Shown here: piece by piece, positions 18,962-59,218 of the stretch
Numbering within the stretch: the stretch's first letter is position 1
Layout of the letters: every line of letters begins with the position of its first letter
Assembly: GCA_025449975.1 (NCBI GenBank)
Contig: JANWIG010000001.1
Span: forward strand, 1 to 64,000
DNA from: Thermoactinomycetaceae bacterium
Lineage (GTDB): Bacteria; Bacillota; Bacilli; Thermoactinomycetales; Thermoactinomycetaceae
Reading direction: 5' to 3'
DNA length: 64,000 nt
Notes under the pieces: model-generated
Told to the model about the DNA's origin: nothing
Database searches by the model: none
Seen by the model: only the letters and a program-made list of their open reading frames with translations
Program-made: the position numbers and the translations under genes

Positions 18962-19203
18962 ATATTTTGCATTGGTTGTGTGATTCTCGGGTTGTGGTTT
19001 TACCCAGTAGAAGAGATTTGTTCGCCACTTGAACTCTATACTATGACGTACCTAGGAACGAACCTGCTATTAGCAGGATGAGAACCGCTCATATGTTCAA
19101 TGATCCAGAAAGTAGTTACTCTGAGCAATCCCATAAAGGGATTACCGAGCAACGCCGTCTTTCATCCCACGATTCAAACTATAGTTTTCAGATGGCATCC
19201 TGA
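18962..19203 (-). mobile_element. Solo IS200/IS605-like right end with omega-RNA-like sequence, copy 1
   Basis: Non-coding element filling most of the 580-base gap between fbaA and fsa. On the minus strand it begins at ATGCC near 19199 and carries a frame end (...GMKDGVAR then TAA) like the tail of a TnpB gene. AATCCC/GGGATT and GCCGTCT/AGATGGC inverted repeats follow. It closes with GGGTAAAACC and CAACCCGAGAATC, the wording I associate with IS605-type right ends; the terminal hairpin is degraded. 31 of 33 bases at 19138-19170 match 59123-59155. No transposase or intact tnpB is present. Family assignment is from memory of such ends, so it is tentative; a plus-strand leader RNA is the alternative. 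Confidence 0.5.
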
Positions 19204-19213
19204 TGGATCTGTG

Positions 19214-58757: not shown

Positions 58758-58874
58758 ATGAATCCTCTTTTTTATAATAAAAGTAAAATTTTACTATCAT
58801 CATTGTCGTGAGAAATGTATAAATTGGAATGAAAATTTTTGCGTCAAAGGATATTTTGTTGTAACATGATTGTG

Positions 58875-59186
58875 TTGACACTCCACACGGCAAAAGTCAT
58901 GAGATTTTCGGACCGTTAGTGTCCGCAGTCCGTTTCCGTTTTAGTGGGTACCCCAGCTCAGGACTGTGTCATCAGCCCGTCCCATGCAGTTAGAATGTAC
59001 CTACATGGGTAGAACGCCTACCAGCGTTCTAGCTCCTTTTACTTACTCTCATCGTTTCCCAATGAGGGAGAGTTGTTCGTCAGTCGATCCAATCCCATGA
59101 CACCGCTCATGCGTCGATTGAAGGGATTACGGAGCCACGCCGTCTTTCATCCCACTCAAACCATAGGCTTTTAGACGGCATTTTCT
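58875..59186 (-). mobile_element. Solo IS200/IS605-like right end with omega-RNA-like sequence, copy 2
   Basis: Non-coding element in the 520-base gap between nuoN and ywzB. Minus-strand reading: it starts at ATGCCGTCT near 59181, in the same place as copy 1. It then runs through stems GCCGTCT/AGACGGC (59139-59145 with 59173-59179), AATCCC/GGGATT (59091-59096 with 59123-59128), ACTCTC/GAGAGT, TAGAACGC/GCGTTCTA (59010-59017 with 59024-59031) and CCCATG/CATGGG. It ends with GGTCCGAAAATC, a short hairpin and GGAGTGTCAA at 58875, which parallels the CCGAGAATC...GGATGTCAA wording of IS605-type right ends. No transposase, tnpB or left end is seen. Assignment is tentative; a plus-strand structured leader of ywzB is the alternative. 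Confidence 0.5.
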
Positions 59187-59218
59187 GTAAGGAACTTGAA
59201 AATAAGGGAGTGCATAAT

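Follow-up and report, generated by a model that had tools for sequence, protein, structure and literature searches.

A 312-bp block on the minus strand of the window (the whole 64,000-nt stretch of DNA that was analysed) constitutes a whole IS605-type element, which lies directly 3' of TTAC and carries TCAA at its end (58875-59186). It belongs to a repeat family composed of a left end (LE), a middle domain (MID) of about 140-145 nt and a right end (RE). The reading that we favour, with a probability of roughly 70%, is that the block represents a non-autonomous, IS608-like element in decay; its intact relatives would be stand-alone genes for omega-RNA, each driven by a promoter and supplying TnpB in trans.

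Extent and insertion of the element

An earlier note on this DNA, made from the letters alone, had described the block as a stand-alone IS605-like right end with a possible omega-RNA and guide, but with no tnpB, tnpA or left end. Its description of the minus strand holds, with the stems, a hairpin at the terminus, GGAGTGTCAA up to 58875 and CACAATCATGTTACAACAAA next to it all present; neither tnpA nor tnpB lies within the block, and the end points that it gave are exact to the base, as judged from empty sites and from the ends shared with other copies. The right end is 74-90% identical to tnpB-linked right ends and is of the IS605 type with an omega-RNA region on the minus strand, as had been proposed, and the guide adjoining it was correctly placed by position. 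The left end, which had been thought missing, exists as a hairpin next to TTAC (Table 1).

The two other genomes of the genus, Thermoflavimicrobium daqui FBKL4.011 (G001) and T. dichotomicum DSM 44778 (G002), have a short stretch before ywzB without the block, that is, an empty site. On the minus strand of these sites CTTAC is followed at once by host sequence with no target duplication, and the junction maps to 59186/59187. The nuoN gene precedes the ywzB site in T. dichotomicum, as in the window, and a remnant of another TnpB is found further upstream of the site in T. daqui. Because of the empty sites in both sister species the block is an insertion without target duplication, and because of the left-end hairpin and the empty site at 59186/59187 it is a whole element and not a lone right end. 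Elements in these two species have the same ends as those in the genome from which the window comes (G000; the own genome, hereafter).

The minus-strand fold of the block beats those of shuffled sequences (z -4.3, 0/100 as good), while the plus-strand fold is weaker against shuffles (z -2.1, 3/100 as good). The comparison with Rfam that the earlier note had suggested yielded 0 matches above the gathering score in the whole window, and relaxed scans of the block and five loci gave only microRNA- or sRNA-like chance matches, all below the gathering scores.

As to the surroundings, the insertion lies between a promoter-like stretch kept in the three species (TTTTGCGTCAAA..TGTAACATG) and the ywzB start (window 58839-59218), so that the 5' leader of ywzB would be about 310 nt longer in the own genome.

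Table 1. Features of the element and of a second copy of the family in the window
Feature	Position	Strand	Basis
Whole non-autonomous IS605/IS608-like element, decayed copy	58875..59186	-	shared ends, empty sites
TTAC, target and left cleavage site retained in the flank; presumed TAM	59187..59190	-	sequence
Left-end hairpin	59139..59179	-	sequence
AAAG 5' of the inner left-end hairpin, as the IS608 left guide	59168-59171	-	sequence; PMC5934647
MID remnant; promoter stretch and first helices deleted	59030..59128	-	model R1, 19.8 bits, E 0.005
Right end / omega-RNA scaffold; starts at the TAG that serves as tnpB stop in tnpB-bearing relatives	58875..59031	-	
Right guide tetranucleotide, AAAT in this copy; GAAT in relatives and IS608	58904..58907	-	PMC5934647 (part of text)
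TCAA right cleavage site	58875..58878	-	30/33 rows of alignment A1 end TCAA; IS608 CR = TCAA (PMC5934647)
Would-be guide = flanking host DNA	58855..58874	-	position only; analogy with ISDra2 reRNA
Second, truncated copy: good preservation of LE and MID, RE missing, TTAC absent	18972..19205	-	R1, BLAST, sequence

Copies of the family and their distribution

The 2.5-Mb own draft genome contains 41 BLAST matches to the block at E<=10, of which more than 15 are strong (70-85% identity) and lie at unrelated loci. Since the strong matches share the 3' boundary and have TTAC at the 5' boundary, the block is not a chance sequence. In nearly all own-genome copies listed, LE begins after TTAC or TTTAC and RE ends GTCAA. 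When 72 copies were inspected, 15 of which gave no left end, TTAC was located at most 24 nt upstream of 47 of the 57 left-end hairpins, against a background of 7.5% per 24-mer. The right guide GAAT is found in nearly all rows of alignment A1 (see below); the exceptions to the TCAA ending in A1 are L035, which ends TCTA, and rows L190 and L191, which stop short of the element ends.

A DNA search with MID and RE matched 17 of the 23 genomes of the family Thermoactinomycetaceae at E<=0.001, some of them via RE only. The covariance model R1, which was built from MID alone (29 rows, 126 positions), matches MID in 20 of 42 genomes of the order, which represent 13 of 27 genera and three families, with 26 matches in G039, 19 in G017, 18 in G038 and 10 in the own genome, partial copies being included in all these counts. 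Across the class, where eight candidates were scored per genome, 20 of 398 genomes match and one of them (G140) is outside the order. MID was also considered as a coding region and rejected by eye: the start codon is not conserved, the frame ends vary and there is no ribosome-binding site.

Right ends are of two types, GTCAA and CTCAA (A1 rows G011, G014, G015, G016, G017 and G020), and the types have linked changes within the omega-RNA, AACGGAAACGG versus AGCAGAAATGG. Besides, a palindromic micro-insert of about 24 nt (CGACCAACGGAAGTGCCCGTGGTA or its reverse complement) is found in the hairpin tips of several copies, namely L265, L268, L270-L273, L275 and L279-L281 (G037, G039, G032 and G027) and L200 (G020). 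It is situated in LE, in helix 7 and in the RE terminal hairpin, and in helix 9 in L281; L274 has it in LE only, and the near-twin L275 has it in LE, helix 7 and RE. Its core pattern matches seven times in G037, 16 in G039, twice in G032, six times in G011 and once in G000, with 0 matches for the reversed control.

Fold, covariation and promoter

Alignment A1 consists of 33 copies from nine genomes and six genera, chosen among the copies that span MID and RE; four of its rows (L141, L028, L029 and L226) were removed for A2 and R1. RNAalifold on A1 gave 72 pairs in 13 helices; the paired percentage is favoured by the choice of rows, because truncated and many near-identical copies were left out. 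Two-sided changes are seen in 33 of the 72 pairs, against only 7-13 after a shift of the partners by 1-3 columns; a covariation score of 0.343, which none of 500 shuffles reaches, drops to 0.049-0.068 after the shift. One of the five covariation measures, further pair types, is no better than shuffles (156/500 as high). Two well-populated Watson-Crick types differing on both sides are found in 11 of the 28 pairs of MID and in 18 of the 44 pairs of RE. GU cells exceed AC cells in both parts (84:22 in MID and 101:24 in RE), which points to the minus strand as the folded one. MID and RE are a covarying structured RNA or single-stranded DNA on the minus strand.

Of 53 copies, 42 have a TATAAT-like -10 box (at least 5/6 positions) ahead of MID, usually at a distance of 9 nt from helix 2, which is the first strong hairpin. 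As points against a promoter, a good -10 box is missing in the other 11, and the -35 box is weak (at least 4/6 positions in 22 of 53).

Relation to tnpB-bearing elements and exchange of right ends

T. dichotomicum carries both a small element and a 1.8-kb element made up of LE, a broken tnpA, tnpB and RE. The two are 83% identical over 90 nt in LE and 91% over 187 nt in RE, the latter from the TAG stop of tnpB onward, and the stretch of about 145 nt between LE and RE of the small element, MID, is absent from the 1.8-kb one. RE is the omega-RNA region of the tnpB-bearing relatives, starting at the tnpB stop codon. With two MID queries, MID was found in one of 29 tnpB loci (26 distinct places), and there, in G026, it is part of a whole, separate LE-MID-RE unit upstream of tnpB. 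Several tnpB loci match only positions 143-317 of the 317-nt MID and RE query, whereas stand-alone copies match from about 4 to 317.

The right-end tree has 74 rows, 51 stand-alone and 23 tnpB-linked; L217 (not beside tnpB), L269, L277 and L281 are omitted and L289 is represented by its tnpB-proximal right end. The class changes seven times between stand-alone and tnpB-linked on this tree, at least six of these changes being forced by well-supported branches, and stand-alone right ends cluster with resident tnpB right ends, for example, in G002, G039 and G000. The p-values of the clade tests are optimistic because the clades were picked after inspection of the trees. The tests reject the grouping of every stand-alone right end into a single clade (p-AU 7e-5). 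G016 and G017 have MIDs that make up one clade (100/100) but right ends that fail to do so (p 0.02), and the MID data reject the 20-row clade of right ends (p 3e-70). In the own genome, the division of right ends between two clades does not reach significance (p-AU 0.35). RE, unlike MID, mixes with tnpB-linked copies on the tree, and the exchange is ongoing.

Partner TnpB and Y1 transposase

Full-length open reading frames of the cognate TnpB, 350-361 residues long and with the D, E and D motifs, are found in nine genomes, one in each. Their Pfam domains are the Cas12f1-like TNB and OrfB_IS605, and among solved structures they come closest to chains of the Cas12f/TnpB-like type (E as low as 4e-33). 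Over 42 genomes, both MID and cognate TnpB are present in 15, MID only in five, TnpB only in two and neither in 20, where G003 (39% match) and G004 (decayed, 50% match) were scored as being without cognate TnpB; the co-occurrence has a Fisher p of 2e-5, uncorrected for kinship. The five genomes with MID but without cognate TnpB count against the trans reading, and G020 has a good copy of the element. G027 has an intact 356-aa tnpB, of which the own RE is cut after 33 nt, and also a full stand-alone copy. G037, one contig of 3.2 Mb, has an intact tnpB and seven MID matches, and its sole Y1 match is a 40-residue fragment before the intact tnpB. The five aligned stand-alone right ends of G037 end CTCAA and its tnpB right end ends GTCAA, which counts against the trans reading.

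The own draft genome showed no intact cognate tnpB and 0 matches to PF01797 (Y1 transposase). Its contigs C34, C35 and C36 each begin inside tnpB, and a multi-copy tnpB element may therefore hide in assembly gaps. Because there is no Y1 TnpA in the element itself, it is filed as a non-autonomous derivative only; LE and RE are both present with no transposase gene, as expected from the option of a non-autonomous element in the earlier note.

A tnpB element occupies the same site in G037 (C1:1089500-1092500, L285) and G039 (C10:41000-43500, L284), and the site adjoins a gene resembling cytochrome c oxidase subunit IV. The tnpB locus has 12 differences in 1053 nt between the two genomes with a dN/dS of about 0.2-0.3, and the flanks have 1/500 differences on the 5' side and 27/380 on the 3' side, with a sharp break at the right end of the element. 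Domestication of tnpB in G037 and G039 was considered, but it is not counted as evidence, for the uneven flanks point to recombination that blurs the picture.

Proposed mechanism

Expression of the intact copies, binding of their RNA by TnpB and action in trans are what we infer in the model below. Each intact copy would be a short gene driven from a promoter at the junction of LE and MID, and the predicted product is a stand-alone omega-RNA of about 300 nt with a 3' end running into the host flank as the guide. MID would replace tnpB in forming the 5' portion of the transcript, and it would probably determine how the transcript is made and how its 5' region folds. TnpB from a separate, usually single, intact gene would take up these RNAs in trans, and TnpB with the RNA would cut empty donor sites (TTAC and guide), so restoring the element after its excision by TnpA, which would likewise act in trans. 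Such a model of TnpA and TnpB in trans agrees with the -10 box, with the fold and with the tracking of resident tnpB right ends by the stand-alone ones.

A wider version of the model is possible but tentative, and we hold it to be improbable on balance: the LE-MID-RE copies may be dedicated stand-alone guide-RNA genes, that is, a dispersed multi-guide repertoire for one chromosomal TnpB in trans, with MID as a new 5' RNA domain, and in lineages such as that of G037 the set may have outlived transposition and be kept by TnpB alone or be heading to host use.

Alternative readings and decay of the window copy

The main rival, which we regard as unlikely, is a plain miniature element (PATE/MITE), where MID and RE would be kept as single-stranded DNA for TnpA and the RNA would be a by-product without any role for TnpB. 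In its favour, hairpins of single-stranded DNA are what TnpA works on, conservation extends to LE, RE, TTAC and TCAA, the evidence for the fold is equally valid for a transposed DNA strand, and PATE-like ends-only elements are reported in PMC7290912. However, mobility by the ends needs neither 11 helices between them nor a -10 box at a fixed distance, nor does it need a full omega-RNA scaffold with two-sided changes, and the rival is a poor fit to the co-occurrence with TnpB and to G037, in which the Y1 genes were lost and the copies kept.

The window copy is most likely silent and immobile, because it has lost the -10 box, 17 of the 28 MID pairs and the RE guide tetranucleotide. TATAAT or even TATA is absent from the element sequence in the window; of the MID pairs 11 are kept, four are broken and 13 are deleted, and 38 of the 44 RE pairs are kept with the right terminal hairpin partly mispaired. 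On the right-end tree this copy has a long branch (0.15) and groups with stand-alone copies from the own genome. The second window copy scores 97.7 bits with R1 (E 2e-22) at 18972-19098 and has its left end at 19136-19198. Accordingly, a retained RNA working with a TnpB encoded elsewhere, an option in the earlier note, is a plausible idea for the family, but it suits the window copy badly, given the missing -10 box and the extensive damage to the fold. That the window copy itself is such a working guide RNA is very improbable: the RE pairs are largely kept and outside read-through transcription could stand in for the lost promoter, but the deletions in MID, the mispaired terminal hairpin, the change of GAAT to AAAT and the lack of an intact cognate tnpB in the own draft genome as seen all speak against it.

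A simple deletion remnant of a tnpA-tnpB element, another option in the earlier note, is an insufficient explanation and one with hardly any chance. LE and RE do match the tnpA/tnpB element of T. dichotomicum, and in the own genome a deletion on C36 fuses LE to the middle of tnpB, but the MID remnant between LE and RE is no part of the tnpA/tnpB element, and the copies share MID, which is common to elements in three families and is not found between LE and RE in tnpB-bearing copies. The deletion remnant is refuted if the homology of MID is accepted (R1 E 0.005 for the window copy and 2e-22 for the second one). Finally, a plus-strand cis leader RNA of ywzB, the alternative named in the earlier note, can practically be dismissed. 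Its location speaks for it, with a conserved promoter-like stretch on one side of the block and the ribosome-binding site of ywzB on the other, but the empty sites refute it, as ywzB is present without the block in both sister species; the copies are at unrelated loci and the GU:AC bias favours the minus strand.

Significance and comparison with known systems

TnpB represents the kind of nuclease from which Cas12 descends, and its omega-RNA is commonly regarded as a by-product of the tnpB mRNA. If the favoured reading is true, a widespread omega-RNA-only element with its own 5' domain and promoter would separate the guide from the nuclease, like CRISPR arrays; the use of many guides in trans by one TnpB would become testable, and so would the question of whether TnpB and RNA maintain gene-less elements after loss of the transposase.

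Altae-Tran 2021 and Meers 2023 reportedly described omega-RNAs of IscB that stand alone and act in trans, and PATEs located close to TnpB in Geobacillus. The family resembles these reported cases in the idea of an omega-RNA apart from the nuclease gene, and it would differ in having TnpB (Cas12f-like) in place of IscB and its own 5' domain. A literature search over titles and abstract openings found no tnpB-free omega-RNA element with a separate conserved 5' domain, and the LE-MID-RE family is provisionally taken as undescribed.

IS608 (IS200/IS605, Y1 transposase) has the cleavage sites TTAC and TCAA, the left guide AAAG and the right guide GAAT, according to PMC5934647, and TTAC is also given in PMC8612924. 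The family shares with IS608 TTAC/TCAA, AAAG, GAAT (in the relatives), subterminal hairpins and insertion 3' of TTAC without duplication, but the block has no tnpA or tnpB and has a structured MID instead, and the window copy has AAAT for GAAT.

The reRNA of ISDra2 derives, according to PMC8612924, from RE together with the 3' terminal part of tnpB and has the flank as its last ~16 nt, and in the model given there TnpB with RE RNA cuts the empty donor site and the sister copy restores the element. Like this reRNA, by the same text, the RE RNA region of the family ends at the element border with the host flank as the would-be guide, and the TAM is the insertion motif; unlike ISDra2, there is no adjacent or overlapping tnpB, and what stands before RE is a conserved MID with its -10 box.

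The PATE or IS605 MITE, of which one 271-nt ends-only copy of IS605 is described in PMC7290912, is, on that account, likewise short and gene-less, has both ends of an autonomous partner and is presumably moved in trans. Unlike such elements, the family has a MID that covaries and is not derived from the tnpA-tnpB partner, its RE retains the whole omega-RNA scaffold, and it is present in many copies in three families.
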